A DNA stretch of 43,870 bases from an uncultured Saprospiraceae bacterium. GTDB lineage: Bacteria > Bacteroidota > Bacteroidia > Chitinophagales > Saprospiraceae. Positions 1 through 27,643 of this stretch are shown in pieces. The first letter of the stretch is position 1. Every line of letters starts with the position of its first letter. The stretch covers positions 1-43,870 of the forward strand of contig CALDSS010000153.1 in the NCBI GenBank assembly GCA_937924495.1, read 5' to 3'. The notes beneath the pieces are model-generated. The model searched no databases. It was not told the DNA's origin and saw only the letters and a list, made by a program, of their open reading frames with translations. The position numbers and the translations under genes are program-made.

Positions 1-3000
1 TTTTCTGCAATCTTCTTTTGTATTGTATTTTCGACTATCACTTTTTTTATTTTTGTTGGTATCGTTTTTTTCTGAATTTTTGGTTTCTCTAACACCGCTA
101 TTCCAGGCATATTTGGTTCACCAGAAAAAGAAGAATATGAAACCTCTTCAGCGTTCAAGCTGTTCAGTTCCCCCTTCAGCGGGTCAGGGGGCAGGCAATC
201 AAATATCCGCTTTCCACCTGGTCTTATTTTTTTGAAAAAACTTCGTTTCTTCTTTTTATCTACTTCCTTTTTTGGAAAGAGAAAAGAAACGTCCAAATCG
301 ACCCCATGACTTACTAATTGAGAAATCAATTCAAAAAGATTTTGTCTGTTTGACTTCCCCTTTCTATCTACTGGAACGACATGAAATTCCTTTCCATCCA
401 AAATGGAATTTATCCAACCAGAACAAGTTGCAGCGGCTCCTACTTCAATAAAAATACGAACACCTCTATCATGAACAGCTTTCACTGTTTTCGGAAAATC
501 TACCGTTTGACAACAAACTTTTGTTGAATTTTCCGCCAATACTTTTTCATCCAATTCCATGGTATCGAGTGTCATGGAAGAAAAGAATGGATACTTCGGT
601 TTTTCTAAAATTTTGAAAGAATGCATATCCAACAACCCATTCAATTCCTTTTTACAGAAATCATGATGAATTACATTTTGGAAAGGAATTTCGACACTTG
701 GCACACCGAGTGTTTCAGCAATTTGATAACAGATAGTTCTATCTCCAGAGATAACTACCTCATTCTCTGTATTGACAAAAGTGAGGTAAACTTGCTCCTG
801 ATTTTCGATAAGTTTTTCTACTTTTTCGCGAGGCGCTATCAAAACTAAACCCACCCATTTTTCTCTGGCTTCTTCAGAAGTGATTCCCCAATGTTCGGCC
901 AATAATTCTAATTTACCGGCAAACCTATTGGTAAAAATTGGAGAATTTTGGAAAACCAAAGTATTGTCAGGATGCCACACTTTGGCACCATAAATCATAC
1001 TGCTGCACTCGCCCATGCTATAGCCAAAAGCGAGATCAGGTTGGATTTTTAAATAGTTATCCAAGACATAAGTCCAAACTTTTGAACAAAACACCCCCGA
1101 ACTCATGAGCGCCAACACATCCTCATGGATAGCTGGGTCTGGGTCGTCTGCTTTTATCTTTTTTGGAAAAGCATAATCAGGAAAAACGAATCGATAAAAA
1201 TCTTTTACGGACTCGCTGTTCTCTGCATAAATTTGAGGGAAGAGTTGAAAAACTTCTTTATTGAGGCCGCTATATGAAGTCGCAGAACCTGGATATACAA
1301 AAGCAATTTCGCCCACCTCCGCCAGCGGGTTTGGTGTAAAATAACTTCCACCCGGAGTTTTTAAAGGCTTTAAATTTATGAACGATTTTGGTATCGAATT
1401 TTTGAAAAATCTGATTTCTCTTAATAAGTCAGATTGAGTGGTAGCTGAGATTACCAAGCAATAAGTCAGTTGATTTTCTTGATAATCTTGGTAAAAGTAA
1501 TTGGATAAATCCTTCAGTTTTTCTCCACTTAAAATTCTACTTTCAAGTGACTCAATTTTTCCAATCAACTCGTCTTCGCCCTCTCCTTTTATGAAAAATA
1601 AAGAAGGCGTATTTGTTAATAAGAAGGTTTGTTCCGACTTATTTTCAAAAGAATAAATCGACTCAGACAAACGAAGACTCATGCCTTCTGCACCATTTAC
1701 CATGGCCTGCCTACAGCCCTTCCCTTGATTCAAAATCCAGGGATGAGAATAGATTGGGAAGTAATAATTTTTGTCATAAAATGCATCGGTAGATGGTTCT
1801 TTCCAATTGGGCACTGTTGGTAAAAAACTGTAGTGCAAACAAATCGCAGTTTTGATCAAACTGGCCAAACCTGAAGCCGCACGGGTATTTCCAAAGTTTG
1901 ATTTTACACTTCCAATGGCAATTTTTTGATTCGGATTATTTTGGGTTAAATACTGAATTTCTTTTTCGTCTTCTGCCTTATTGCCCGATCCATTTATTTC
2001 CAAATAATCAATTCCATCAAAATTTAAACCTTCTCCTATTTCATCGATGATGGCATAGGTTTTCTCCGTTTTTGATTCTGACCTTTTCAAAACCACCGCG
2101 CCAGCTCCTTCTCCTATAAGTTGACCTGCATCGCTTTTATTGAAGGCAATACTTGGTTGCTCATTAGTATTGGTACCCGATTGTAAATTTCGATATAAAA
2201 CAGATTCCAAGCCTCCTGCGAAGTCAACAGCTCCGACCACCACTGCATCTACCTCGCCTTTTGAAAGCAAGTTTTGCGCAATTTCTAAAGCCTTAAATGC
2301 TGAATTATCACCTGCCGAAACTGTAAATGCTGGGCCAGAAAAATCCCATAATTGAGCAATACGACTTGCCATAATGTTCCCAACAAAACTGGTATGCTGA
2401 CTTGGCGTCTGTGCCCCATCTCGATAATAAACTGCGTTTCTCAGATTCGAACTTAACTTATCATTATTCAAGCCATTGAGTGCATCTGCTAATTGCCATT
2501 CCAAATCCCATCGCGCCAAATAATGATGAATGGTTGGTTCACTTTCCATTGCAATTAGGACTGCAACGTTTTGACCTTCTTCCAAACCTGCATCTTGAAT
2601 GGCATTGTCAGCAACTTTCAAAATTAACGCTTGCTGCGGCTCTAAAGTCTCGGCCTCAGCGGGTTGAATTTTATACCTTAATAGGTCGATTTCAAAATCT
2701 TCGATGTAACTCCCTTTTGGTGCTTTTCCATCCTTCAACCCAAACTTGGTTAGCAGTTCTTTATTCTCATCAAAACCTTTCCACCGCTCTTTTGGCAATT
2801 CTCGGAAATGTTGTTTTCCATAAAAAATAGAACTGTAGAAATCATCAATATTATCACAATCCCCAAAATGAATATCCATACCGATTATGGACATCGGTAG
2901 GAGTTCTATTCTACTCTCTGGGTTAAGTTTACTAAACCGTTGAGGTTTAGTAAACTTGGAATCATCAGCTCCTTTCACATAATTCTGAACCACCATGTGC

Positions 3001-4316
3001 GCATTAGTTCCTCCAAAGCCAAAGGAATTGATGGCCGCTTGAACATTGGCTCCATTCCATTTCGTTGGTGAAGAAATCATCTGACTTTCACCTATCCAAT
3101 CGTTGTCGGCATTTAAGCCTTTTTGTAAATTTATATTTGGTGGAATGATGCCCTTTTGCATCGACAAAATCACCTTATGCAAACCAGACATTGCAGCAGC
3201 GGTGAGCAAATGCCCCATGTTTGATTTTACAGATCCGAGGAGCGGTTTTGCATCATGCTGCTTAAAAAAATCTGCAATCGAATTCAGCTCTGTGGTATCC
3301 CCTAAAGGAGTCCCTGTGGCATGACATTCGAGATAAGAAGTATCTGATGGAGAAATATTATTTTCTGAATATGCTCTTTCAAAAGCTAATTTTTGACCCT
3401 CAGGATTGGGACTCAATAAAAATTTTCCTCGTCCATCATTCGATAAACCCGTTCCACAAATGACTGCTAAGATGTTATCGCCATCTCGCTCAGCATCAGC
3501 CAATCTTTTCAAAACCACCATACCTGCACCCTCTGAGGAAACCAATCCGCCTGAGTCTTTGTCTAGAGGAACAAACTTCGAATTTCCATCCGCATAGGCA
3601 TGAAAAATTGAAAAACCCATGTGGATGAATAATTGGTCAGAGCCACAAACGGCGCCGGCCAACATCATATCTGATTTACCAGTCGCCAATTCATCACAAG
3701 CCAACTTGATCGCATACAGTGAAGTGGCACATGCTGCGTCCAACGAATAATGAGTGGTTCCTAAACCCAACGCCTTTTTTACAATTTTGGAAGGCGCTTC
3801 ATCAAGGGTATTTGGATTATGGTATGGAAAATTTGAAGGTTTGATTTGAATCGAAGAATCGCCCAAATGATTTTGCAAAACTTTTTGAGCTGTTTCGGAA
3901 TAAATTTCCGACATCATTTTATGCGAAGTAGCTGTTGGAAAAGATAGCGTTCCTAAAATTACGCCACATTTTTCAAGGGCTGCCTCCTTATTTAAATAGC
4001 CGCTTTCGCGCAAAGATTCTTTCGCTACATGAAGACTCCACTGATATAATTTATCTTTCTGAGAAAGTTGGTTGGCTGGAATTTTAAATCCACTGGCATC
4101 AAACTGAAAATCGCGAATGTACCCTCCTCGCAAGGAATAACATTTGTCAACTACACCTTTAGATGGGTCATAAAAAAGATTCGGGTCTGCTCCAAAATCT
4201 TCTGCGTTGGAAAGGCTGGTGAGGTCTTTCCCTTCCATTAAATTTTTCCAAAATTCCTCTGAAGTAGAAGAACCTGGAAACAACCCAGATATGCCTATGA
4301 TTGCGTATTTGCTCAT
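1..4316 (-). CDS. PUFA-synthase-like polyketide synthase subunit, KS-CLF-AT (PfaC N-terminal/PfaB-like; partial, runs off left edge)
   Basis: Own reverse-strand translation from ATG at 4316 (MSKYAIIGISGLFPGSSTSEEFWKNL...); no in-frame stop found to position 3. KS motif DAACATS (~3721-3741), second KS-like domain with FTVSAGDNSAF replacing the active Cys (CLF, ~2295-2336), AT motif GYSMGECSS (~1000-1030). Absent from ORF track because no stop lies in the window. Confidence 0.9.
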   Translation of the reverse strand, partial: MSKYAIIGISGLFPGSSTSEEFWKNLMEGKDLTSLSNAEDFGADPNLFYDPSKGVVDKCYSLRGGYIRDFQFDASGFKIPANQLSQKDKLYQWSLHVAKESLRESGYLNKEAALEKCGVILGTLSFPTATSHKMMSEIYSETAQKVLQNHLGDSSIQIKPSNFPYHNPNTLDEAPSKIVKKALGLGTTHYSLDAACATSLYAIKLACDELATGKSDMMLAGAVCGSDQLFIHMGFSIFHAYADGNSKFVPLDKDSGGLVSSEGAGMVVLKRLADAERDGDNILAVICGTGLSNDGRGKFLLSPNPEGQKLAFERAYSENNISPSDTSYLECHATGTPLGDTTELNSIADFFKQHDAKPLLGSVKSNMGHLLTAAAMSGLHKVILSMQKGIIPPNINLQKGLNADNDWIGESQMISSPTKWNGANVQAAINSFGFGGTNAHMVVQNYVKGADDSKFTKPQRFSKLNPESRIELLPMSIIGMDIHFGDCDNIDDFYSSIFYGKQHFRELPKERWKGFDENKELLTKFGLKDGKAPKGSYIEDFEIDLLRYKIQPAEAETLEPQQALILKVADNAIQDAGLEEGQNVAVLIAMESEPTIHHYLARWDLEWQLADALNGLNNDKLSSNLRNAVYYRDGAQTPSQHTSFVGNIMASRIAQLWDFSGPAFTVSAGDNSAFKALEIAQNLLSKGEVDAVVVGAVDFAGGLESVLYRNLQSGTNTNEQPSIAFNKSDAGQLIGEGAGAVVLKRSESKTEKTYAIIDEIGEGLNFDGIDYLEINGSGNKAEDEKEIQYLTQNNPNQKIAIGSVKSNFGNTRAASGLASLIKTAICLHYSFLPTVPNWKEPSTDAFYDKNYYFPIYSHPWILNQGKGCRQAMVNGAEGMSLRLSESIYSFENKSEQTFLLTNTPSLFFIKGEGEDELIGKIESLESRILSGEKLKDLSNYFYQDYQENQLTYCLVISATTQSDLLREIRFFKNSIPKSFINLKPLKTPGGSYFTPNPLAEVGEIAFVYPGSATSYSGLNKEVFQLFPQIYAENSESVKDFYRFVFPDYAFPKKIKADDPDPAIHEDVLALMSSGVFCSKVWTYVLDNYLKIQPDLAFGYSMGECSSMIYGAKVWHPDNTLVFQNSPIFTNRFAGKLELLAEHWGITSEEAREKWVGLVLIAPREKVEKLIENQEQVYLTFVNTENEVVISGDRTICYQIAETLGVPSVEIPFQNVIHHDFCKKELNGLLDMHSFKILEKPKYPFFSSMTLDTMELDEKVLAENSTKVCCQTVDFPKTVKAVHDRGVRIFIEVGAAATCSGWINSILDGKEFHVVPVDRKGKSNRQNLFELISQLVSHGVDLDVSFLFPKKEVDKKKKRSFFKKIRPGGKRIFDCLPPDPLKGELNSLNAEEVSYSSFSGEPNMPGIAVLEKPKIQKKTIPTKIKKVIVENTIQKKIAE
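2925..2957. repeat. 14-bp perfect inverted repeat inside the KS-CLF linker coding region
   Basis: AAGTTTACTAAACC-GTTGA-GGTTTAGTAAACTT. Confidence 0.95.
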
Positions 4317-4392
4317 TCGTAAAACGAACCGTCAGTCCGTGAAATTTTGTGTTTTTAGTGTTGTTTTTTTCGGACTGGTAGTCCGAAATACG

Positions 4393-6876
4393 TTACCATT
4401 GAAGATCTTTAGAAATTGTCAAGGTCGCTCCTTCTGTTTGCATGAAGAGATTATTATCCTCATCAAAAACTCGACAGGTAGCTACCATTTTATAGTCATC
4501 TGCCTCCTCAACTTCTATGGTACAAAACAGTCTTTTTTCAAAAGGAATATTTTCGTAAAGTGTCACCGAACGGGTAGAGACTGGAAGTCCTTTGGCTCCG
4601 TCTTTAAACATTTTCACCCAAACCACTATTCCTTGATAGTGAATATCGCTATAGAATGGATTGACTTTTCTTGCACTAAATTGGCCTTGATCCTTATCGG
4701 GAACCACAGGCGAATTGCATTGCATAATCAATTGTTTCTCTGAGGCATCGAGTAGTTTTTCAATGCCTTGAAAATACTTGCCGTGAAACAAAGTTCCGTC
4801 TTGATATAGAATCGAACCATCGGTTGGTTCATATTTTCCACTATTGGTTGGATGAAATTTAGGTTTTGGAGGAATATTGTTTTTGTGTCGTATTGTTACC
4901 TTGGATTTGTAATGATAAGTCGGCAGTTTTCTCCCTTCGTCCTGACTTGAAACCACCACATTGAAGGTAATCTCATCTTCCGTTTTTTCCAACTCTTCTA
5001 CTTCCGAAAGGTAAATCTCTTTTTCATTACCATCAAAAACCAACCCTTTGAAAAGTTTGGTTTCAAAAACCCTGAAAATCTTATAATCTGGATAAAGGTT
5101 ATGACAAGTTTGTGCAGTCCAACTGATGGCATTGACCACAGGCATCACAGGTTTTCCTTGAATCACATGATGATGTAAAAAAGGGTTTTCTTCCAGTTTT
5201 ACTGTTCTAATTACTCGGTGATTTCTTTTCTCACCAATATAGCTACGAGCAGCAGGTAAAGTACCTCCAATGATGCATTGCGGTTCTTCAAAGTACTCCT
5301 GTCTCAATTCATTTACCAACAATGCTGGCCCTCCTTCACTATTGACCAACTCTACCCCATGCGCTTCGAACTGAGCTTTCAATTCGCCCGTCACCATACC
5401 GCTGTCCCATGCACCCCAATTGATGGCAGTTACATGTGTATTCGGATGATTGGTTTTGAAAAGGTGAGCAGCTTGGCTCAAAATTTCATTGGCAATAGCA
5501 TAATCTGATTGACCAATATTTCCATAAAAACCAGCAACAGATGAGAACAAAATCAGATGATCCAAATTATGAATATCAACTGATTGAAAGAGAGAGAGCA
5601 GTCCATCTAATTTTACAGAAAGTACGTTCTCAAAATCCGCTTCTGATTTATCTTGAATGTATTTATCAGCCAATCGCCCTGCGCCATGCATGGCTCCAGT
5701 GATTTTCCCAAGTTGTTTTTCTGCTGCTTTTAATTGAGTTGAAAAACTGGCAGCATTCGTTACATCACCTTTTATATAAATGGCTTGAGCGCCATGACTT
5801 TTCACTTTATTTAAAGTGTCTTCAATTTCTTTTTTGGCCGTGATATTTTTGAAAATTCGTCTGACTTCTTTCAAGTTTGGTTTCTCGCCACGAGCTTTCA
5901 TGTCTTCCATGATCAGACGTTTCAAATCACCCTCTGAAGAGAAATTTTCCGCGAAAGCGGGCACCTGATAATCGAAGTCTGAACGGCCGAGCAAAATGAA
6001 TTTGCATTGGAAACAACGCGCCATTTCTACCACACATTTGGCAGTTACTCCTTTTGCACCACCACTCACTAAAAACACCGAATCTGAAGAAACAGTGGTT
6101 TTAATTTGCTCATTATCAGTCAGTTGTACTTTTTTAGCAGTCGTCGTTTTTCGTCCTTCTTCCGAAAATGCAGTCTCAACATAAGTCAAATCAGCATCGT
6201 GAAATTCAGCAATCACTTGATCCGCAATCACTTCAACAGCTAACTCTGGTTGGATATCAACTGCTCGACAATAAACTGGCGACCATTCCAAATTCAAGCA
6301 TTTGATCAATCCTTTTAAACCACCACCAATGACAGAAATATTGCCTCTTTTGCCTTGCCCCAATTTACCATCGAGACGGGTGACCGACATAAATCCAACT
6401 CGTTGTTTTTCACCTAGTTCATTCAGTGAAAGTTTTAGGTGTTTTGCCAAAAAGAAAACTGCTTTTACAATTTCCCTTTCAGTCTTAAAATGTTGGACGA
6501 ATCGGCCACCCTGAAATTCGAAATGTGGATGGAGATGAATAAAACTACCAATCGCACCATGCTCTTTAGCAATTTCCTGTAAAGCTTCTCCAATTGCGAA
6601 ATCCGAAATTTCAGGTAAATCAAATGCGTTTACCTTGATTGGGTTGGGTACATTTGGCAAATTTAAAACAGCCACTTTTTGGTTATTGGCAGCAAGTTTT
6701 GAAAACACTTTTTGTGTTAATTTTGAACCATCATTGGTCAATAAAATACAATGTGTGAGCGGTATCTGAAATTCGTAAAAATCTGGTCGAGGAAGGTACT
6801 GCAAGGTCACTCTACTACGAGTAACACCATGGAAATCTCCAATTGGAACAGTTGTGTTCTGTTTTGGAGTTTCCAT
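4393..6876 (-). CDS. PUFA-synthase-like KR-DH protein (C-terminal half of a PfaA-type synthase as a separate polypeptide)
   Basis: PfaA-type KR motif VFLVSGGAKGVTAKCVVEMARCFQCKFILLGRSDF; YAIANE; C-terminal hot-dog/DH-like segment NPFLHHHVIQGKPVMPVVNAISW. Confidence 0.88.
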   Translation of the reverse strand: METPKQNTTVPIGDFHGVTRSRVTLQYLPRPDFYEFQIPLTHCILLTNDGSKLTQKVFSKLAANNQKVAVLNLPNVPNPIKVNAFDLPEISDFAIGEALQEIAKEHGAIGSFIHLHPHFEFQGGRFVQHFKTEREIVKAVFFLAKHLKLSLNELGEKQRVGFMSVTRLDGKLGQGKRGNISVIGGGLKGLIKCLNLEWSPVYCRAVDIQPELAVEVIADQVIAEFHDADLTYVETAFSEEGRKTTTAKKVQLTDNEQIKTTVSSDSVFLVSGGAKGVTAKCVVEMARCFQCKFILLGRSDFDYQVPAFAENFSSEGDLKRLIMEDMKARGEKPNLKEVRRIFKNITAKKEIEDTLNKVKSHGAQAIYIKGDVTNAASFSTQLKAAEKQLGKITGAMHGAGRLADKYIQDKSEADFENVLSVKLDGLLSLFQSVDIHNLDHLILFSSVAGFYGNIGQSDYAIANEILSQAAHLFKTNHPNTHVTAINWGAWDSGMVTGELKAQFEAHGVELVNSEGGPALLVNELRQEYFEEPQCIIGGTLPAARSYIGEKRNHRVIRTVKLEENPFLHHHVIQGKPVMPVVNAISWTAQTCHNLYPDYKIFRVFETKLFKGLVFDGNEKEIYLSEVEELEKTEDEITFNVVVSSQDEGRKLPTYHYKSKVTIRHKNNIPPKPKFHPTNSGKYEPTDGSILYQDGTLFHGKYFQGIEKLLDASEKQLIMQCNSPVVPDKDQGQFSARKVNPFYSDIHYQGIVVWVKMFKDGAKGLPVSTRSVTLYENIPFEKRLFCTIEVEEADDYKMVATCRVFDEDNNLFMQTEGATLTISKDLQW

Positions 6877-6926
6877 TGTAAACCTCTCTTCCTTCCGCGC
6901 AACAACCTGAGGTTCAGAAGCTACGC

Positions 6927-9900
6927 TTACCCCTTTTTTGAGCTAACGAAAGTTACAATTTCTCCCAAAGTTCTAAGCTCCGTCAGGTCATTTGGATTGA
7001 TGTCTGACATGGCTGGATATTGGCTAGTCAATGCTCCAAAAATTTCTACTCTTTTTATTGAATCAATTCCCAAATCCGCTTCCATATCCATTTCCAACTC
7101 AAGCATCTCGGCTGGGTAACCTGTCTTTTCTGATACTACTTCTAAAAGTGCCTTTTCCATCTCTGCTTGAGAAACGCCTCCTGAAGATGGTGCCGTTGCA
7201 GCTCCATTGGAAACAGCAGCAACTGGTTGACTCACAACAGGTTGTGGAGTTGAAACTGGTGCAGCGGCAACAGGTGCTGAACCCGCTTTTCCAGTTACAA
7301 AAGTTACAATTTCACCTAAGGTTCTTAACTCCGTCAAGTCATTAGGATTGATGTTAGACATCTCTGGATATTGTGCCGTTAGCGCTCCAAAGATTTCTAC
7401 TCTTTTAATGGAATCAATTCCTAAATCTGCTTCCATATCCATTTCCAACTCAAGCATCTCGGCTGGATAACCTGTCTTTTCTGATACTACCTCTAAAAGG
7501 ATTCCAGAAATTTTTCCAGCGTTCAATCCACCACCATTTGGAGCTGGAGTTGATACAACTGGAGGTGCAACTGGAGCCACTACTTTTTGCACCACTGGCG
7601 TGGCAACCGTCGAATGTCCATTGCTGTGGCCGTTTCCATTTCCATTGGAATGAATGATTGGCTGAATCACCTTTGGGGTGGTCACTACAGGAGTGGCAGC
7701 AACAGCAGCAGTTGCCATAACTGGAGCTGATTTTCCAGCCTCAATTTGGCCTGCAACAAGGTTGATTAATTGTTGTGCTTGAGCATTTTGCTCACTCATG
7801 AATCGTTCAAAAATCTCTAAGGATTTGTTTTGGTTTGCTTGGAACGACTGGAGCGTTTGTTGTAAAACTTGGAGTGCCTCTTTTGTCATTTCTTCTGAAT
7901 TTTGTTCTTGATTTTGAATTGGTACTTCTATAATTTTCTCCACGATTTTCTCTACTTCCACTATTTTTTCAACGGGTACGTTAACTATTTTTTCTACTAC
8001 TTGTGTTGCTGATTGCGATACTTTGAAACCATTGTTCAATACATCATCATAGGCTTTTAGCGTTTTCGGAGAAACGTAGTTACTGCCATTCAACTCAACA
8101 GTTAATTTTGTTTTTGGTGCTGGCAATGGTTGGATAGCCTTGTACGGATCAACATTTTTTAACGGAACACCCAAAACTTGCAATTGAACCACCGCTTGTC
8201 TGAACTGCAAATCACTATTCTTTTTTGCATTCGGATTTAGTGCAACTGCAACATAATCTTTTCCACTCAAAACGGATTTTACCAAATTAGTAAGCACCCC
8301 CTTTGGTCCAAACTCTACAAAGATGCGACCTCCATTTGCATGAATATTTTCTATCTGTTGTTTGAAAAAGACAGGTTTTAAAATCTGTTCTTTCAATAGA
8401 GATTTCACTTCATTTAAATTGGAAGGATATGGTTGTGCTGTACTATTTGCGTAAACTGGAATTTGTGGTTTATTAAATTTCAAACCATGAACAAAACTTG
8501 CAAATGGTTTTTGAGCATGTGCCACAAACTCGGTATGAAAAGCTGCTGAAACAGGTAACGGAATCACAGTCAAACCTGCTGCAACTAATTGATTTTGAGC
8601 ATTTTGTATCGCATCTGTTCCTCCTGCAATAATAATTTGTCTATCAGAATTTACGTTTGCAATTTTAACTCCTGCAATAGATTTGATTGCCGCTTGCACT
8701 TCATCAAAAGATGCTTTGACAGCAGCCATCGTTCCGGCATCACCGCCTGCTTCTTGTGCCATGGCATTACCACGCGTCTTTGCCAATTCGAGAAAAGTTG
8801 CATCGTCATAAACTCCTGCCGCCCAAAGCGCAGTTAGCTCTCCAAAACTGTGGCCAGCTACAAAATTTGGATTAAAGCCAGCTGATTTCAAAGTTTTGAA
8901 AAGCCCCATACTCATGGCTCCAATCGAAGGCTGAGCATTTTGGGTCTTGGTGAGTTCGACTTGCTGTTGTGCTCTTTCTTCTTTTGAAAAAACAGGGACT
9001 GGAAAAATCGTTTTTGTCAAATCTCCTGTTTTCGCGAAAGCGTCATAAATCGCTGGAAAAGTGTTGGCCAATGCCCCACCCATTCCAACATATTGTGAAC
9101 CTTGTCCCGAAAACAAGGCCACCAAATTGGTAGAACTATCGATGCTGCTTGCACGAAAATAGATTCCTTTTGGATGTTCCCATCCTGCTTGATTGGCTGC
9201 CAATTGTTGGGCTGCAATTTGGAAGTATTCAATTGCCTCTTCTTTCGTTTTTACAACAAACCCCAATCTTGGTTGACTGGTATTCAAATCAAGACTTCTT
9301 GAATTTTCAACTAATTTACCAAATTCCAAATCTCCGTTCTCACCAGAAAGCGTAGTCGGAATGGATTGACATTGTTTAATTAAAGTTGCAACCGATTCCT
9401 CTTGAAGCAAAACTGTTTTGTAGGGTTCGTGCAAGCGATAATTGCCTGATTTTTCACTACCATACTCTTCCATCGCAATGTGGATATTGATTCCACCAAA
9501 GCCAAAAGCACTTAAACTTGCTCTTCTTGGATACTCTGTTTTAAACCAAGGACGCGTTTCTGTATTAAGATAAAAAGGTGTGTTTTTAATATCAAACTTT
9601 GGATTTGGCGCTGCCACATTCAAGGTGGGTGGCAATACTTTGTGATGCAATGCCAAAGCAGCTTTTATCATCCCAGCCGCACCTGCAGCTGATTTAGTAT
9701 GACCAATCTGTGATTTTACAGAACCCAAAGCAATATGCTGATTTTCACCAGAGAAAACCATATTCATGGAGGTAAACTCGGTTGGGTCACCTGCTCCAGT
9801 GCCTGTTCCGTGCGCTTCAACAAGCCCAACGGTTGATGCTGGATAACCTGCATCTTCATAAGTGCGTCCCATCGCCAACGCTTGACCGCTTGGGCGTGGT

Positions 9901-10859
9901 GCGTAAACAGATTTGTATCGACCATCAGAAGATGCACCAATACCTTTTACGACTGCATATATTTTATCACCATCTCTTTCTGCATCTTCCAGACGCTTCA
10001 TCAATAACATTCCAACTCCTTCACCAATCAACATCCCATCACCTGCCTCACTAAAAGGGCTGATTTTTCCAGATGGTGAGAATGCTGGCGTTTTTGAGAA
10101 AGACATGTACATGAAAATGGAATTGTCGGTATCTACTCCACCGGTTAACATCATATCTGACCGACCTTCGACCAATTCACTCAAGGCCATTTTCACGGCA
10201 GAAAGTGAAGCGGCACAAGCTGCATCCACAACGGAATTGATTCCACCTAAATCAAATCGATTGGTAATTCGACCTGAGATCACATTCCCGAGCATTCCAG
10301 GGAATGAATTTTCATTCCAACCGATAAATGCTTTGTTTATCTTTTCAATGATAGGTGGAATGTCTGCTTCAGAGATTCCGCTTGAACGAAGTGCTTTTTC
10401 CCAAACTGGTCTTTGCAATCTGGTCATTAATGGCCCAATCAATTTTTGACCACCACCGACGCCCAAAATTACGCCGGTCTTTTCACGCAATTCTTTGGTA
10501 AATTTCTCTGAGCCTTTTCCATAACCTCCATCTTGAAAAGCGTCACGAGCAGCCACTAAAGCCAACAGTTGACTCACATCTGTCACTTCCAAAATATTTG
10601 GCGGCAAGCCAAATTCCATTGGATTGAAATCAATTTTTGGTAGGAAGCCACCAACCTTGCAATAAGTCCGGTCTTCGGCAAATGGATCTGGATTATAATA
10701 ATCATCAATTTTCCATCTATCTTCTGGAACTTCGACAATGCTATCACGTGCTTCGACAATATTATTCCAGTATTCCTCCAAGTTTTTGGCATCTGCAAAA
10801 AAAGCAGAAAGACCAACAATGGCCACAGGAGTTTTACTAAGTGAGGAGTTTAAATTCAT
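6927..10859 (-). CDS. PUFA-synthase-like KS-AT-ACP-ACP protein (PfaA N-terminal-like)
   Basis: KS motif [36 protein letters not shown] motif GHSFGE; two ACP motifs [15 protein letters not shown]. Confidence 0.93.
   Translation of the reverse strand: [1310 protein letters not shown]
6942..7500 (-). repeat. Tandem ACP domain repeat (two copies, 351-bp offset)
   Basis: Near-identical DNA at ~7061-7148 and ~7412-7499, and at 6951 vs 7302; offset 351 bp (117 codons); both encode [39 protein letters not shown]. Confidence 0.92.
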
Positions 10860-10986
10860 GTAATTTTCAAATGATGAATTTTTTGATAAAATTTAATTTA
10901 AAATCTATAATTATCTAAAATTCAGTTTTTTATAAAATACAAAAGTTCATATTAAATTTTTATTACTAAAAATAGACCAATTTCAG

Positions 10987-11601
10987 TTAAATGGAAACCC
11001 TGAAAAGTTCTTCTTGCTTTTTTAGTAATTCTAATCCTTTTGAGGTGCATAAACCTCGCATGTATGGCACCAATGTTCCGAAGGTTAATCGCTCTCTTGA
11101 GAATCTTTCCATCGGAAATTTTTGATGGTCTTTGAATAATTTCAAAAGGCACAAAACTGTCGTTCCTACAACCTCAATATCCAAGTCATCTACAAAAATG
11201 CCATCGTCGATTCCCCAATTGGCGAGGTACAACATTTCTTCTTTGGCATAAAGCCCTGCTTTTTCAATTTCGGATTCAAGGTTGGGATGAAACCGAAAAA
11301 TATCTGGATAAAAGTTGGGATTGATGGTATAAGCTCTTTCAAGGATTTTTTGATGCAAAAGCCCCATTGCCGCAATGGCATTTGGAGCATTGTGTATTAT
11401 CTCCTCATTTTCATTCCTTACCTTTTTGTGGTATTCCCAAATACAATCGGTTAGCAATTCGTCCTTGTCTTTGAAAAATTTATAGATAGTTCTTTTGGAA
11501 GTTCGAAGCTCTGAAACAATCCGATCAATGGTCACTACCTTTACCCCGTGTTTAAGGAAAAGTTCGGAAGCGATTTCAGTAATTTTTTGTTGTGTTACCA
11601 T
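10987..11601 (-). CDS. TetR/AcrR family transcriptional regulator
   Basis: N-terminal HTH: QKITEIASELFLKHGVKVVTIDRIVSELRTSKRTIYKFFKDKDEL. Confidence 0.88.
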   Translation of the reverse strand: MVTQQKITEIASELFLKHGVKVVTIDRIVSELRTSKRTIYKFFKDKDELLTDCIWEYHKKVRNENEEIIHNAPNAIAAMGLLHQKILERAYTINPNFYPDIFRFHPNLESEIEKAGLYAKEEMLYLANWGIDDGIFVDDLDIEVVGTTVLCLLKLFKDHQKFPMERFSRERLTFGTLVPYMRGLCTSKGLELLKKQEELFRVSI

Positions 11602-11722
11602 CTATTTGAACCAGCGGTAATTATTTTGTCTCACCAGTACCGCACAAATGAACGAAAGATTTTTGTGAAGAAAGAATGATAATTAAAATAAAAATTAGTT
11701 TTGCCAAAAATCGTCATCAATC

Positions 11723-12364
11723 ATGAAGATTTATTGGGCAAACTCAGGAGAAATACCGCAAAGCATAACGCTTCAAGCGTTTGTTTCTGATTTACCAAAA
11801 AACATGATTGAAAAATCACTTAGATATAAATCAGAGGAGGCCGCTTTCAATTATACAACTGGAAGAAAGCTTCTTAGATTGGGTCTCAAAAATCATGGAC
11901 TGGAAAATGAATTCAATAAGATAAAAATCAATAAGAATGGAAAACCTTTCGTAGCCGGTGTTTTTTTCAATATTTCACATTCTAATGATCTGGTTGTTTG
12001 TGCCTTTGATTCAAATGAAATAGGAATTGATATTGAGAAAATAAAACCAGTTGATTTATCAAATTTCCACCATGTTTTCACTGACCGTGAATTGACATTT
12101 ATTGAAGAAAATGAAAATCCAACTTTGGCTTTTTATAAACTATGGGTAAGGAAAGAAAGTTTTATAAAATCTATTGGTTCAACGATAAAAGAAATGAGAG
12201 AATTGGAAAATAGATTACCCTCCAAAACACTGGTTACCAATACTTTAGAAAACAAAATAGTTGATTTCAAATTGGAAGAAAATTACGTTGGAGCAGCTTG
12301 TGGCATATCATCAATTAAAATAAATTCGATACAAAAAATAGATCTATTAAAATTCAAAACCTAA
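11723..12364 (+). CDS. 4'-phosphopantetheinyl transferase, Sfp/PfaE type
   Basis: Sfp motifs GIDIEKI and FYKLWVRKESFIKSIG; NISHSND; located next to ACP-bearing synthase. Confidence 0.88.
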   Translation: MKIYWANSGEIPQSITLQAFVSDLPKNMIEKSLRYKSEEAAFNYTTGRKLLRLGLKNHGLENEFNKIKINKNGKPFVAGVFFNISHSNDLVVCAFDSNEIGIDIEKIKPVDLSNFHHVFTDRELTFIEENENPTLAFYKLWVRKESFIKSIGSTIKEMRELENRLPSKTLVTNTLENKIVDFKLEENYVGAACGISSIKINSIQKIDLLKFKT

Positions 12365-12455: not shown

Positions 12456-13553
12456 TTGAAAAAATTAATTTTAATACTCTTTTTCTTTGCTTCGATTTCC
12501 AATCTTTTTTCACAGAAATCTGATTCAACAAAGTTGATAAGAGATTCCAAATTCTTTGGACTTCCTTTATTGTTCTTCACCCCAGAGACGGGTTGGGGAG
12601 CTGGCGTTGCTGGTGGTTTTTCTTTTTTGATGCACAAGGAAAAATTAAACGGCCGACGATCTCAGGTTCAATTAGACTTCGCCTACACCACTCGCGAACA
12701 ATTATTGCTGTTTTTTCCATTTCAACTATATTGGAATGAATCGATCAATCAAGCTTACGGAGAAATTGGATTTTTTGATTTTACAGATAGGTTTTATCCA
12801 ATTGGCAATCAGTTTAAAGAAAAAGAGCAAGCCCAATTTGAAGAGTCTTACCGCTTTAATTACCCTCGAATTCGATTGAATTATTTAAGAAGAGTTGATA
12901 AAAAAAACTACCTCGGCATTCGATATTGGTTTGACAATTCCAAAATAACTCGAACAGAGGCAAATGGAGCATTAGCGCGTGGCAATATCCTTGGCAGCCG
13001 TGGAGGAATTATAACGGGTTCTGGTTTAATTTATCAATATGATACCCGAGATCATGTCAATTATTCGAGTAATGGTGCTTTTTTTGAAGGAGTCCTTTAT
13101 GCAAGCGAAAAATGGATGGGTTCTGATTTCAGACATCAAAGAATCTATTTAGATTATCGAAAATTTTTCACTTTACGTCCAAACCACATTCTGGCACTCA
13201 ATGCCTACGGAAGAATGAATTTTGGAAACACCCCCTTTGATGATTTAGCATTGTTTGGAGGTTCTAAACGGATGAGAGGGTATTTTGAAGGATTCTACCG
13301 AGACAATCACATGGCCGTACTTCAGGCGGAATATCGTTTTCCTATTTTTTGGAGATTTAGTGGTGTCGGATTTACAAGTTTTGGAACCGTTACAGATAAA
13401 TTTTCTAACCTCCAAACCCAATATATTCGCCCATCAGGAGGCGTTGGCCTCAGATTTACGTTAGTGCCAAAGGACAAATTAAATTTAAGGATTGACTATG
13501 GTATTGGAAGGAATACAAGTGGATTTTACCTAACTGTAAATGAAGCGTTTTAG
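12456..13553 (+). CDS. BamA/surface-antigen-like outer-membrane beta-barrel protein (TTG start in the track)
   Basis: Signal peptide then PLLFFTPETGWGAGVAGG, LFGGSKRMRGYFEGFYRDNH, GGVGLRFTL: Omp85 barrel-type motifs. Confidence 0.75.
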   Translation: MKKLILILFFFASISNLFSQKSDSTKLIRDSKFFGLPLLFFTPETGWGAGVAGGFSFLMHKEKLNGRRSQVQLDFAYTTREQLLLFFPFQLYWNESINQAYGEIGFFDFTDRFYPIGNQFKEKEQAQFEESYRFNYPRIRLNYLRRVDKKNYLGIRYWFDNSKITRTEANGALARGNILGSRGGIITGSGLIYQYDTRDHVNYSSNGAFFEGVLYASEKWMGSDFRHQRIYLDYRKFFTLRPNHILALNAYGRMNFGNTPFDDLALFGGSKRMRGYFEGFYRDNHMAVLQAEYRFPIFWRFSGVGFTSFGTVTDKFSNLQTQYIRPSGGVGLRFTLVPKDKLNLRIDYGIGRNTSGFYLTVNEAF

Positions 13554-14410
13554 GATTCAAATAGAATTTTTTGATCCAGAACCGTTACTTCTTCATTTGG
13601 AATTTGTGAAACTTCTTCCTCAGGTTTTAGTGGCAAATTTCTTTTTACTAATCTGAGTTTGTGCGAGTATTTTTTTGTTTGCTCATCAAAAATGCCATAG
13701 TGGTCGAGCCTATCAATTCGTACCCTTCCGAAAGAATGAATTATTTGCTCACCACTCAAAATCATGCCTACATGAGTGACTTTTCCTTTTCGATTTTGAA
13801 AATATGCTAAATCACCTTCCTGAACTTGCTCCACAAAATCAACGTTTTTGCCAAATTCGATTTGGAGGTCAGCAGTCCTAGGCAGATTAACACCAATAAA
13901 TCCAAATATGTGTTGAATCAGAGCAGAAGTGTCTAGTCCGAAAGGAGTTCTTCCCCCCTTCATTTCAGGAATATTCAAAAACTTTCTGGCTATTTTAGGA
14001 AGCAATTCAAATACATTACGCTTCAATTCTTGAGGAGAAACCGCTTGTCCACTGTATTCATAATTTTGACCAAACAAAGAGAAACGAAGGCCATCAAACT
14101 GAGGCAGTCGAGCACCAATAGGAATTTGAAAATGGTGATTATTTCCACGAATAGATTGTGAAAGATCTAAAGCAAAGGCAAAATCAGTGGTTAGTTTTTT
14201 AGAACTTTTTTCATCGATTTCCTGTAATTGATTGGATTGAATCCATCCGAAATGGTTATCCATCAAGCCACGCACCTTCAACCATTGTTTCCCTTTTGTA
14301 TCTACTACTTCCACCATTTCTCCAAAAAGCAATTGCGAAAGCAACTCGCTTTGATGATTAGCTTGTGACCTTACCGGAATAACACTTAGAGGGCAAATGC
14401 CAAATCTCAT
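13550..14410 (-). CDS. NlpC/P60-like protein with N-terminal SH3b domain(s); catalytic Cys position is Thr
   Basis: SH3-like PLSVIPVRSQANHQSELLSQLLFGE; NlpC/P60-like FGLDTSALIQHIFGFIGVNLPRTADLQ...GDLAYFQNRKGKVTHVGMIL. Confidence 0.82.
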   Translation of the reverse strand: MRFGICPLSVIPVRSQANHQSELLSQLLFGEMVEVVDTKGKQWLKVRGLMDNHFGWIQSNQLQEIDEKSSKKLTTDFAFALDLSQSIRGNNHHFQIPIGARLPQFDGLRFSLFGQNYEYSGQAVSPQELKRNVFELLPKIARKFLNIPEMKGGRTPFGLDTSALIQHIFGFIGVNLPRTADLQIEFGKNVDFVEQVQEGDLAYFQNRKGKVTHVGMILSGEQIIHSFGRVRIDRLDHYGIFDEQTKKYSHKLRLVKRNLPLKPEEEVSQIPNEEVTVLDQKILFES

Positions 14411-14544
14411 AAACAGATTTGTTAAAAAAGGAATAGGTTAATTAAAAATAATAAAACTGCGTTTCTTAGATTTTAGAAAAAACGGCAAATTCTTTGCCTT
14501 TTAAAACGAGTTCTATGAATTGCCAAAGTTAATTAAAATCAAAT

Positions 14545-14552
14545 TACCTTTG
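14545..14552 (+). promoter_or_regulatory. Bacteroidota-type -7 element TACCTTTG upstream of porP/sprF-like gene
   Basis: Exact match to TAnnTTTG; TTG at 14520-14522, spacer 22 nt. Confidence 0.45.
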
Positions 14553-14676
14553 CGAATCAAAAAGGTGCGTTTTTAAAATTCAGTTTAAAGTTTCTTAATG
14601 AATTTCTGGAACCTGAATTTGCATAAACATTGAACACGCACCAAGATTTGAGGCTCATTCACTTAAAAGATTAATA

Positions 14677-15726
14677 ATGAAAAGTTTTTTTACCGGACTT
14701 TTAGTTTTGGTATTTTGTATATCGTTGAAGGCCCAAGATCAGCACTTCACACAAGTTTATAATGCTCCTCTTGCTCTCAACCCTGCCTTAACGGGTTCTT
14801 ATGCAGGGACTTATCGTTTTTCAGGAATCTATCGTGATCAATGGAGACAAACGTTAGATGATCCGTATGTTACGTTTGCTGGAATGTTGGATGTAAGGTT
14901 TCCGTTAGAAGTTTATAATGGAAAATATAATGATGCGGTCGCAATCGGTTTGATGTTTTATAATGATAAAGTTCCTGGTGTTGATTTTAATACCAATCAA
15001 ATAGCTTTATCTGCTGCCTACCACAAAGCTTTGGATTTGAATAATACACAATACATTTCTTTAGGCATCCAAGGAGGAATCAATCAGCGGAATATCAATT
15101 ACGAAGATTTAACCTTTGATGATGAGTACAATGGAACTACTGGTTTCTTTAATCCAACAAGAGAAATTTTACCCAGTAACAACTTCTCTTTTGATGACTG
15201 GGCTATTGGGCTGAACTATGCCTTTATTCCAGGAAGAAGAACTTCCTTTTACGCAGGAGTATCACTGCACCATATATTCGAACCCCAGGTTTCTTTTTTC
15301 CCAATAGATACAGATATCATGTATGAAGGGAATACTTTATTTAGAAAGTTTGGTGCACAAGTTAGTGCCAGCATCCCGCTTTCTGACAAATATTCTATTC
15401 AACCACGATTAGTTGGAAGCTTGCAAGGTCCTCATTTTCAGGCAGTTACAGGTTCTAATGTTAGAATTGCACTTTCAGAATACGATTACTCCGCACTTCA
15501 TATTGGAGGATGGGTAAGACCAGTCAGAAATTTTGATGATTCGTTCTCGCTTGATGCAGCCATCATAATGTTAGGAATCGAGTACCGAAATATCCTGTTT
15601 GGATTAAGTTATGATGCTACTTTAGTTGATTTGCAAACAACTCGTCGAGGTCAAGGAGCTTTTGAATTTTCTGTTTCCTACTCCAGTAATACCCAAAATG
15701 AAAGTTTACTTTGTCCTAAATTTTAA
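14677..15726 (+). CDS. PorP/SprF family type IX secretion-associated outer membrane protein
   Basis: QDQHFTQVYNAPLALNPALTGSYAGTYRFSGIYRDQWRQ is the classic PorP/SprF N-terminus. Confidence 0.93.
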   Translation: MKSFFTGLLVLVFCISLKAQDQHFTQVYNAPLALNPALTGSYAGTYRFSGIYRDQWRQTLDDPYVTFAGMLDVRFPLEVYNGKYNDAVAIGLMFYNDKVPGVDFNTNQIALSAAYHKALDLNNTQYISLGIQGGINQRNINYEDLTFDDEYNGTTGFFNPTREILPSNNFSFDDWAIGLNYAFIPGRRTSFYAGVSLHHIFEPQVSFFPIDTDIMYEGNTLFRKFGAQVSASIPLSDKYSIQPRLVGSLQGPHFQAVTGSNVRIALSEYDYSALHIGGWVRPVRNFDDSFSLDAAIIMLGIEYRNILFGLSYDATLVDLQTTRRGQGAFEFSVSYSSNTQNESLLCPKF

Positions 15727-16394
15727 ACCGATTGGTTGAAAAGGTGCTGCAAACCCATTGCAAATTTTGAATATTTGGTCAATCTGAAGGGCAATCGTTG
15801 CGCTATCTGATTAGCTTTCCCTTGTGCCTCCTTAGAATATTTCATTTCTAAAATGATTGAAGGAGACTCTGTCCAAATTCTTGAGTAGAAACTTTTCAAT
15901 TCTTCTACAGAGGTTGACAAACCTTTATTGAATAGTGGAAAAAATTTAAGATTTTTATCTATCGTAATTCGGACGGTCTTGTCAGAATTCACAAAATAGC
16001 TTCTGTGATACTGATTTATAACAACAGGGTAAACTTTGGCATCCGATTTTCTTGATGCGGTTTTCACTCTCTCCGTAAGCTCGTTAAGGTTTTTTATTTG
16101 AGAAAGATTTATTTTAAACTGTTCTTTAGTCCCTAAGTCATTTTTTTTACCCTTTATTTCGAGCGTAATTTCATCAGTTAAATTCTCACCATACCATCTT
16201 ACTCTTAGCTTATTTCTTACTGCAATTCCATCTCTATTTTCCCTCAATTTTACATAACCTGGCTCATCAAAATAGATGTTATTCACTACTCTATCATCAT
16301 AAGCTTTTCTAAATCCATGAGGCAAAATTTTCACAGTTTGCTTCACCTGAGAAAAGGGCATTTCATCAATTCGGTATTTTCTTTCGTATCTCAC
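15723..16394 (-). CDS. VTC-domain (polyphosphate polymerase-like) protein
   Basis: MRYERKYRI...VNNIYFDEPGYVKLRENRDGIAVRNKLRVRWYG...EIKGK...YHRSYFV...TIDKNLKFF: VTC/TTM-fold pattern. Confidence 0.85.
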   Translation of the reverse strand: MRYERKYRIDEMPFSQVKQTVKILPHGFRKAYDDRVVNNIYFDEPGYVKLRENRDGIAVRNKLRVRWYGENLTDEITLEIKGKKNDLGTKEQFKINLSQIKNLNELTERVKTASRKSDAKVYPVVINQYHRSYFVNSDKTVRITIDKNLKFFPLFNKGLSTSVEELKSFYSRIWTESPSIILEMKYSKEAQGKANQIAQRLPFRLTKYSKFAMGLQHLFNQSV

Positions 16395-23024: not shown

Positions 23025-26018
23025 ATGAAATTTAAGTTCGACTATTTCAGACGTGGGCTATTAATGCTTACGCTGGTAGCAATGGCTAGTTTTGCTTGGG
23101 CACAACGTACCGTTGTAGGTACAGTAAACGATGGCGATACTGGTGAACCACTTATTGGTGCAAGCATTTTCGCACCTGGAACCGATGCGGGTACTGTCAC
23201 AGATTTTGACGGTAAGTACTCTATCGATGTTCCATCAGGAGTTAATACTCTTGAATTTTCTTACACAGGATATGCCACTCAGACAGTTCAATTGGGTGCT
23301 TCGAATGTTGTTAATGTAAAATTAGCAGCAGGAGCAGTGCTTGATGAAGTTGTTGTAATTGGATATGGCTCTGTGAAGAAAAGTGATTTGACAGGGGCAG
23401 TAGCCTCTATTGGTGAAAAAGACTTCAATAATGGATTGATGGTTACTTCCGATCAATTGATTCAAGGTCAAACACCAGGGGTACAAATCACAGCAAACTC
23501 AGGTCAACCTGGAGGAGCAACAACAGTCAGAATTAGAGGTAATTCTTCTTTTAGAGCTGGAAATGACCCGCTTTACGTGGTCGATGGAGTTCAATTAGGT
23601 GGAGCATCTTCTAAGCCAGACTTTAATATCGGTAGCGATATTGGTAACTCACCTGCTGCCAACCCTCTCAATTTCCTTAACCCTAATGAAATTGAATCAA
23701 TCTCTATTCTAAAGGATGCATCCGCAACTGCCATTTATGGTTCAAGAGGAGCAAATGGAGTTATTATTATTTCAACTAAAAAAGGAAAGAAAGGAGAGCC
23801 AACCGCTCAATTCAACACTTCTGTAGGGGTAAGCAACATCCAGAGAAAGTATGATGTTTTATCTGGAGATGAATATAGAGATGCCCTTGCAAGATACCCT
23901 GAAGTCACTGGTGGTGATTTTGGAAGTGATGTGGATGCTTTTGATGAAATTTTGAGAACAGGAATAATTCAGAACCATGGAGTCTCAATAGGAGGTGGTT
24001 CTGACAATGGTAACTACAGAATTGGTCTAGGTTATTTGGATCAAGAAGGTATCATAAAAAATAATGGTCTCAATAGGCTTTCTGCCAATATTGGCGGTGG
24101 ATACAAATTTCTTGAAAACAATAATGTGGGTCTTGACTTTAACATGATTGCAGCAAGAACTAACGAAAACGGCGTTCCGATTGGAACAAGTTCTGGTGCA
24201 AGAGGTAGTTTGATATCTAACGCACTTCAATGGAACCCTACCCACCCATTATACGATGGAGACGGTAATCCAATAATTGACCCAGATTTTGGTGATTTTG
24301 TAAATCCTGTAGCACTTCTTGATAATTATAAATCAAGAACGAATACCACAGATCTTTTGGCTAGTATTAGTCCGTGGGTAAAATTCACAGACAATCTAAC
24401 CTATAGATTTAACTACGGAGTTACTGCTGGAACAGGTCAACAAAGAGGTCAGCTTAGTCCTGTTATCAATGTACAAGACGTAAGAGACAGAGGACTTGCA
24501 TGGATATCAAATGGTAGCAATACAAATCAGATTTTAACGCATACCTTAAATTGGACACAAGACTTAAGCTCGAATTTAGGTCTCAACTTAATTGGGGGTT
24601 ACGAGTATCAAAAATTTGATGAACGAGCGTCAGGAATTAGTGGTAGAGACTTTTTGAATTCTGATTTAGTAAATGATCTTGATTTTACAGGATTCTTGAA
24701 CGCTTCCTCTCGTGGTTCGAGAGAAATATTTGCACAAAATAATCCGAGTGCAGAGTTGCAATCGTTTTTTGCACGAGGAATCTTCGACTTCAATAATCGG
24801 TTCTTAGTAACTGCAACGGTAAGATCTGACGCATCCAGTAGATTTGGTGCGGATAACCGTACTGGTATTTTTCCTTCTGTTGCTTTCGGATGGAACCTCC
24901 ACAACGAAAGTTTCCTTGAAGGATCTACTTTCAATGAGTTGAAATTCAGAGCCAGTTGGGGTCAAACAGGTAACTCTTCAATTCCAACAGGAAGAGCCCA
25001 AACGCAATACAGATTTGATAATGACGGTGGTTTATTTAGTGCAATTAATCAAAATCCAAACTTGACTTGGGAGACGTCAACAACTTTCAATATTGGGCTT
25101 GATTATGCATTGATGGATTATAGATTGACAGGTTCTCTTGAATATTTTAATAGAAACAACAGCAACTTCCTATTTAGTACGGAGCCAGCCTTCCCTGGAC
25201 CTCCATCCCTAAAATGGATTAACTTTGAAGAAGGTAATATTGTTAATCAAGGTGTTGAACTTGGCTTGAATGCAGATATCGTTCGAGGCAAAAATTTCAA
25301 CTGGGACTTAGGTCTTTTCTTATCTTTCTTGGATAATCAAGTTAAAAACTATACTGGTCCTAACTTCTTCTATCAAGGATTGTTTGGTCAGGGTAGTTCA
25401 GGTGCTACAGTAGGTCGTATTGATAGTGACGTTGCAATTCACTCATTTTATGTGAGAGAATTTAATGGCTTGGACGACAAAGGTGTTTCTCAAATTGGTA
25501 AACTGGAAGACGGTCGAGATAAATTTATCTATTTTGGAGACCCTAATCCAGATATGTTGCTTGGTTTGAGAACAAATTTATCATTTGGTGATTTATCATT
25601 AGGAATAAATATGAATGGTGCTTTTGGCCACCAGTTGTATAACAATACACTAATGAGTGTAACCAACATTGGTAACTTAGGATCAAGAAACATTTCAGGT
25701 AGCCTTTTAGAAGGTGATGTTTTAGAAGCAAAGAGTAATGCAATCCAATCTTCTTCAAGATATGTAGAAGATGCAGATTATTTGAAAATAGCAAATGTAA
25801 CATTAGCATACAATTTGGGTAATATCGGTAATTCAGTAAAAGGTCTAAATGTTTTCATTACTGGACAAAATTTAGCAACTTTTACAAGTTATTCAGGATT
25901 CGATCCTGAAGTCAACACCGTAAACGTGGCGGCCAACGGTATCCCATCATTTGGTGTAGATTATATTGGGTATCCAACAGCAAGGAACTTCCTAGTGGGT
26001 GCTAATTTTTCATTTTAA
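23025..26018 (+). CDS. SusC/RagA family TonB-linked outer membrane protein
   Basis: Carboxypeptidase-regulatory-like N-domain (TVNDGDTGEPLIGASIFAPGTDAGTVTDFDGKYSI), DEVVVIGYGSVKKSDLTGAV, plug and barrel motifs. Confidence 0.96.
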   Translation: MKFKFDYFRRGLLMLTLVAMASFAWAQRTVVGTVNDGDTGEPLIGASIFAPGTDAGTVTDFDGKYSIDVPSGVNTLEFSYTGYATQTVQLGASNVVNVKLAAGAVLDEVVVIGYGSVKKSDLTGAVASIGEKDFNNGLMVTSDQLIQGQTPGVQITANSGQPGGATTVRIRGNSSFRAGNDPLYVVDGVQLGGASSKPDFNIGSDIGNSPAANPLNFLNPNEIESISILKDASATAIYGSRGANGVIIISTKKGKKGEPTAQFNTSVGVSNIQRKYDVLSGDEYRDALARYPEVTGGDFGSDVDAFDEILRTGIIQNHGVSIGGGSDNGNYRIGLGYLDQEGIIKNNGLNRLSANIGGGYKFLENNNVGLDFNMIAARTNENGVPIGTSSGARGSLISNALQWNPTHPLYDGDGNPIIDPDFGDFVNPVALLDNYKSRTNTTDLLASISPWVKFTDNLTYRFNYGVTAGTGQQRGQLSPVINVQDVRDRGLAWISNGSNTNQILTHTLNWTQDLSSNLGLNLIGGYEYQKFDERASGISGRDFLNSDLVNDLDFTGFLNASSRGSREIFAQNNPSAELQSFFARGIFDFNNRFLVTATVRSDASSRFGADNRTGIFPSVAFGWNLHNESFLEGSTFNELKFRASWGQTGNSSIPTGRAQTQYRFDNDGGLFSAINQNPNLTWETSTTFNIGLDYALMDYRLTGSLEYFNRNNSNFLFSTEPAFPGPPSLKWINFEEGNIVNQGVELGLNADIVRGKNFNWDLGLFLSFLDNQVKNYTGPNFFYQGLFGQGSSGATVGRIDSDVAIHSFYVREFNGLDDKGVSQIGKLEDGRDKFIYFGDPNPDMLLGLRTNLSFGDLSLGINMNGAFGHQLYNNTLMSVTNIGNLGSRNISGSLLEGDVLEAKSNAIQSSSRYVEDADYLKIANVTLAYNLGNIGNSVKGLNVFITGQNLATFTSYSGFDPEVNTVNVAANGIPSFGVDYIGYPTARNFLVGANFSF

Positions 26019-26035
26019 TTTAAATTTTTTTAATT

Positions 26036-27541: not shown

Positions 27542-27566
27542 TCAATATTAGTTTCTTGAAAATATT

Positions 27567-27602
27567 TAGGTCGCTCTTTCATTAGAGCGACCTATTTTTT
27601 TG
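27567..27602 (+). terminator. Intrinsic terminator downstream of susD-like gene
   Basis: TAGGTCGCTCT-ttcatt-AGAGCGACCTA followed by T-tract. Confidence 0.92.
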
Positions 27603-27610
27603 GAAAATAA

Positions 27611-27618
27611 TATCTTTG
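27611..27618 (+). promoter_or_regulatory. Bacteroidota-type -7 element TATCTTTG
   Basis: Exact TAnnTTTG 26 bp upstream of the FG-GAP/ASPIC gene start, after the terminator. Confidence 0.42.
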
Positions 27619-27643
27619 ATGAACAAAAATTGGACAAAAATTC

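Follow-up and report, generated by a model that had tools for sequence, protein, structure and literature searches.

Evidence for a Type D PUFA synthase operon, broken by assembly, in a Saprospiraceae bacterium and for a candidate operator of its TetR-family regulator

The DNA analyzed here, a stretch of 43,870 nucleotides (the window), almost certainly carries a Type D operon for a PUFA synthase (Pfa), broken by assembly, from a Saprospiraceae bacterium. The architecture is already known, and the locus is a further member of its type, cut at the end of a contig. A conserved dyad upstream of the TetR gene of the operon is a modest new detail of the locus, and is a candidate for the site through which PUFA synthesis could be controlled.

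Results

The window comprises contig C153 in full, part of a draft genome of 3.26 Mb in 211 contigs that is 86% complete. Read from right to left on the minus strand, it contains a TetR gene, pfaA1, pfaA2 and the initial 1438 codons of pfaBC. Gaps of 50-76 bp separate the three synthase genes from one another, and tetR lies 127 bp from pfaA1, spacing of the kind expected if all four belong to one transcription unit. The gene for the TetR-family regulator (10987-11601, minus strand; Pfam TetR_N) stands at the head of this putative pfa unit, and its position adjoining pfaA1 is kept across Saprospiraceae loci. On the other side of a 121 bp gap, and divergent from tetR, is a gene for an Sfp-type PPTase (PfaE role; 11723-12364, plus strand; Pfam ACPS, E=4e-14) whose position and orientation recur in many Type D loci of Saprospiraceae. 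The original prediction had named KS, AT, two ACPs, KR, DH, a CLF lacking its Cys, TetR and PPTase in this region, and motifs together with Pfam and TIGRFAM matches place every one of them at the predicted coordinates.

Beside the pfa locus, positions 13550-16394 hold genes for an NlpC/P60 hydrolase, a PorP/SprF protein (type IX secretion-associated) and a VTC-domain protein, all ordinary Bacteroidota genes. Positions 23025-35600 encode a SusC/SusD-like pair followed by two large proteins, one having FG-GAP and ASPIC/UnbV domains and the next similar to it by eye, and a glycosyltransferase-like protein that matches no Pfam family.

pfaA1 (6927-10859, minus strand) encodes a protein of 1310 aa with the order KS-MAT-ACP-ACP. 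It matches the PfaA family TIGR02813 with 1567 bits (cut-off 1010) and has Pfam matches to KS, AT and two PP-binding stretches. Its KS-A domain (9449-10832, minus strand) has the Cys in DAACAAS (10206-10226, aa 212) and His at 9795-9812 and 9699-9716. The MAT domain (8178-9116, minus strand; Pfam Acyl_transf_1, E=1e-36) contains GHSFGE (8838-8855, aa 669); GHSxG is a malonyl-type motif (PMC12895367). The phosphopantetheine sites of ACP1 (7401-7427, aa 1145) and ACP2 (7050-7076, aa 1262), both on the minus strand, read DLGIDSIKR. Counted by motif, the number of ACPs ranges from 2 to 6 across the loci of relatives, and the two in the window are at the low end.

pfaA2 (4393-6876, minus strand) encodes 827 aa with a KR and a PKS-type DH (Pfam KR and PS-DH), and carries the motifs YAIAN and HVIQGKPVMP. 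Its product aligns to positions 1758-2577 of TIGR02813 (506 bits) and, by this match, is the C-terminal half of PfaA, split off from the KS-MAT-ACP-ACP half as had been proposed. The split varies within the group, because in BB22 (L050, a PfaA1-type ORF of 2618 aa) and in Flammeovirga pacifica (L074, 2248 aa) the two PfaA halves form one chain even though pfaBC shows the Type D fusion. In Spirosoma telluris (L081), the pfa genes lie in several shorter frames, with PfaA1 and PfaBC each in three pieces, a pattern suggestive of decay or of errors in sequencing.

The 5' two thirds of pfaBC (3-4316, minus strand; 1438 aa) run off the contig. The encoded KS-C domain (2937-4313; DAACATS at 3720-3740) is followed by a CLF domain (1617-2900) in which the catalytic Cys is gone (FTVSAGDNS, 2301-2327) and the His of KSNxGH has become Asn (KSNFGN, 1887-1904), and then by a PfaB-type AT domain (279-1508; GYSMGE at 1008-1025), all on the minus strand. 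The placement of these domains and motifs agrees with the order KS-CLF-AT predicted for the third synthase protein. The KS-CLF part matches structure 6riw (entry name ORF10), which we take to be the KS-CLF of Moritella PfaC, with 691 bits, and the next best match has 301. The PfaB family TIGR02816 matches aa 937-1346 with 129 bits, which is below the cut-off of 144; GYSMG is the active-site motif of bacterial PfaB (PMC12895367).

Because the window is an entire contig, pfaBC is cut by assembly, and because C153 ends at position 1, the DH-DH and ER parts are absent from the window. Six genomes of the same family have a full pfaBC (about 2250-2320 aa), followed in each case by pfaD (~540 aa). 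In two relatives, G008 and G014, Pfam places two FabA-type domains at the C-terminus of PfaBC, giving KS-CLF-AT-DH-DH, and the PfaD of G008 has PfaD_N/NMO domains (Pfam) and scores 660 bits against TIGR02814 (cut-off 449). The C-terminus of the bacterium's own pfaD product (187 aa, with 87% identity to the full-length PfaD of G008) is encoded at the end of contig C154, with the strand and edge expected if C154 joins C153, facing the break. These complete operons and the pfaD end on C154 support the proposal that DH-DH and ER belong to the left of the window.

A search of the bacterium's own assembly, which is 86% complete, did not find the DH-DH stretch, and a search of the genus found only the C-terminal end of pfaBC, in G003. 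In that genome the front of pfaBC (KS-CLF-AT) is on C593 and the last 99 aa are on C43 (C-terminus 87% identical). Since the two ends are on separate contigs, the gap in G003 pfaBC is also an assembly break. The expectation that DH and ER partners would be found in flanking sequence was therefore borne out for relatives, which have both, and for part of the ER gene in the bacterium itself, and not for its own DH-DH. Loss of DH and ER is unsupported, given that the edge of the window is a contig end and that pfaD is present on C154. We infer that the DH-DH part is present in the genome.

A scan of genome contigs identified 75 relatives, mostly Saprospiraceae and including Aureispira sp. CCB-QB1. 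The order TetR-pfaA1-pfaA2-pfaBC-pfaD recurs across these relatives, often with a divergent PPTase gene, and TetR-pfaA1-pfaA2-pfaBC-pfaD is also the order in the cultured Aureispira sp. CCB-QB1. Aureispira marina and Psychroflexus torquis were absent from the matches of the contig scan, and their places were taken by Aureispira sp. CCB-QB1 and Flammeovirga pacifica. A strong match to pfaBC was found in 45 of 298 sampled Saprospiraceae genomes (about 15%), representing 23 of 111 genera. A search of a plasmid collection returned only homologues from Persicobacter and Streptomyces.

In a maximum-likelihood tree of 54 KS domains (P. torquis is not among the rows), KS-A and KS-C form separate groups. 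The window KS-A falls in a Saprospiraceae-type clade of 14 rows (99/99) and the window KS-C in one of 13 rows (100/100); each clade includes Aureispira, and in each the window sequence is sister to G008. Motilimonas, which has an unsplit PfaA and a stand-alone PfaB, is outside both clades. Both KSs thus group with Pfa KSs and not with unrelated PKS clades, as anticipated, and the tree together with the PfaA and PfaC matches rejects an unrelated PKS or FabF origin. The tree, the TIGR02813 match and the PfaC structure match likewise confirm that this is a PUFA synthase locus.

A dyad, GGTA-N18-TACC (GGTAATTATTTTGTCTCACCAGTACC, 11616-11641), is located 14 nt before the TetR start codon and is a candidate operator. 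The dyad is present in all 20 divergent tetR/PPTase gaps examined (19 distinct, L024 and L053 being one locus), always with a spacer of 18 nt; over 500 dinucleotide shuffles the mean was 0.33 and the highest count 3 of 20. It is also upstream of tetR in 31 of 31 loci that have tetR (28 distinct), including loci with no adjoining PPTase gene, and so is tied to tetR and not to the PPTase gene. Three loci (L029, L067 and L103) have the core dyad and lack the longer consensus. The 26 dyad columns carry 1.45 bits each, compared to 0.36 and 0.44 in the flanks, with the four core bases on each side fixed by site selection. A DNA site is preferred over an RNA hairpin because support from covariation is absent: the positions immediately flanking the arms can pair in only 18/28 and 14/28 sequences, and the core pairs are invariant. 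The RNA hairpin was therefore rejected.

The strict 26-nt pattern occurs exactly at 34 places in 33 of the 298 family genomes. Thirty of these genomes are among the 45 that are positive for pfaBC and three belong to the remaining 253 (Fisher p about 1e-26, uncorrected for relatedness). We counted 33 of the 34 places as pfa loci, with inspection covering part of the sites on contigs other than that of pfaBC. Twenty strict sites share a contig with pfaBC and lie 7.3-8.2 kb from its start, and the three sites in pfaBC-negative genomes are also upstream of tetR-pfaA1, on cut contigs. One genome with a pfa locus, G263, has a second exact copy of the motif (L112:2288-2313, G263:C3) away from recognizable pfa genes.

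Discussion

The gene arrangement in the window was originally read as an unusual mix of a split PfaA and a thraustochytrid-B-like subunit. As far as it is visible, it is instead exactly that of the Type D cluster described in marine Bacteroidetes, with pfaA1 (KS-AT-ACP5), pfaA2 (KR) and pfaBC (KS-CLF-AT-DH2) (Shulse & Allen 2011, PMC3098273). In the window, pfaA is split into pfaA1 (KS-AT-ACPn) and pfaA2 (KR). Of the pfaB-pfaC fusion (KS-CLF-AT-DH-DH), KS-CLF-AT is visible and the DH-DH stretch falls in the assembly gap, although the homologous genes of G008 and G014 have it. The ER is encoded by a separate gene, pfaD, the C-terminal part of which is on C154, and a PPTase with PfaE function is encoded at 11723-12364. 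Both KSs group with Bacteroidota Type D, in the Saprospiraceae clades with Aureispira. The founding clusters have five tandem ACPs, a number that we take as descriptive, and the window has two. This difference is no bar to Type D, since counts of 2-6 occur in one clade and A. marina has four and yet was placed in Type D. The one-chain PfaA and stand-alone PfaB of marine Type A are not found in the window locus.

The marine gammaproteobacterial Type A/B systems (Shewanella, Moritella) have an equal enzyme set, and the window KS-CLF is close to 6riw, presumably the Moritella PfaC structure. However, their PfaA is unsplit, their PfaB stands alone, their PfaC is KS-CLF-DH-DH, and their KSs form separate clades (with Motilimonas as proxy). 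Thraustochytrid subunit B (KS-CLF-AT-ER) shares the order KS-CLF-AT, but has the ER after the AT (PMC9702510), whereas relatives of the window locus have DH-DH there and the ER as a separate gene. An OrfB-type subunit was rejected, as the full genes of relatives end in two FabA-type DHs and the ER is separate. By description, the Type D clusters of P. torquis and Ulvibacter (PMC3098273) have the same organization of pfaA1, pfaA2 and, as far as it is visible in the window, pfaBC, although they have five ACPs and belong to another lineage of Bacteroidota. The A. marina cluster is from the same family, Saprospiraceae. Like the window locus, it has a split PfaA with the KR part separate, an AT between CLF and DH-DH (the latter predicted for the window locus), and its own ER and PPTase genes; it differs in having four ACPs compared to two (PMC5067506). 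Aureispira sp. CCB-QB1, the stand-in for A. marina, has three by motif count.

By analogy to studied Pfa synthases (PMC9702510, PMC12895367), the PPTase would arm the two ACPs and the MAT of PfaA1 would load malonyl units. KS-A and KS-C/CLF would carry out condensation and the KR of PfaA2 the reduction step. The PKS-type DH of PfaA2 and the two FabA-type DHs of PfaBC would dehydrate the chain and set the cis double bonds, PfaD would reduce enoyl groups, and the PfaB-type AT of PfaBC would offload the finished chain. Arachidonic acid would then be placed in membrane phospholipid.

The product is most likely arachidonic acid (ARA, 20:4 n-6), since ARA is what the tested Saprospiraceae synthase and other Bacteroidota of the same PfaD lineage mainly make. 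The A. marina Type D cluster directs ARA synthesis in E. coli (PMC4882568; PMC5067506); this ARA synthase (pfaABCDE, AB980240) is that of Ujihara 2014, as those two papers relate it. ARA is also the main product in Bacteroidetes with the PfaD lineage of the window (PMC13311796). The assignment draws on relatives that are ~60-63% identical in PfaBC. We suspect that the PUFA yield may be low, since there are only two ACPs and the number of ACPs sets productivity and yield while leaving the product profile unchanged (PMC5067506).

It is possible, although unlikely, that a synthase of this same family makes EPA, DHA or another long chain instead of ARA. P. torquis, with a Type D cluster, makes both ARA and EPA (PMC3098273), and product choice is governed by the KS-C/CLF, DH and AT domains (PMC9702510; PMC12895367), of which the DH pair is missing from the window. 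However, the window KS-A and KS-C group with Aureispira, apart from the gammaproteobacterial rows, and ARA is the product of the Saprospiraceae member that has been tested experimentally. We would be very surprised if the locus encoded a secondary-lipid or hybrid polyketide synthase with its chain destined for some other metabolite, as in Pfa-like glycolipid or polyamine pathways. Non-PUFA or unknown products are common among Pfa-like clusters (PMC3098273), and Pfa enzymes are known from hybrid pathways (PMC13291983). Yet within the window we recognized no gene cluster of PKS, NRPS or tailoring type beside the operon, and the hybrid-type Xenorhabdus rows branch far from the window KSs. Less credible still is a decayed or incomplete remnant that lacks DH-DH and does not work: DH-DH was not found in the assembly, but the reading frames are intact and the catalytic motifs retained, the break coincides with the end of a contig, pfaD is still present on C154, and pfaBC of the same-genus G003 is likewise split over two contigs.

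For the Type D operon, the simplest reading of the conserved dyad is that it is the operator of the neighboring TetR protein. TetR probably represses the tetR-pfaA1-A2-BC-D unit via GGTA-N18-TACC, and perhaps the PPTase gene too. We favor, with some reserve, the view that the Saprospiraceae PUFA synthase is under a dedicated TetR-type repressor acting through this single, pathway-specific operator, and that a long-chain acyl group may serve as the ligand, allowing feedback by the product. Such control would be unlike that in gammaproteobacterial pfa clusters, which are regulated by PfaR, a predicted inactive transposase-like protein (PMC4744452). In the open-licence papers searched, we came across no TetR operator described for Type D clusters.

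Because the synthase belongs to a published type, its architecture by itself teaches little. The dyad, on the other hand, is a concrete target for learning how PUFA synthesis is turned on and off in Bacteroidota, and the 2-6 ACPs found within one clade offer a natural series in which to follow the known dependence of yield on ACP number. Type D synthases occur commonly in Saprospiraceae, and many of the hosts are uncultured. Thus, C20 PUFA may have a wide bacterial source in this family.
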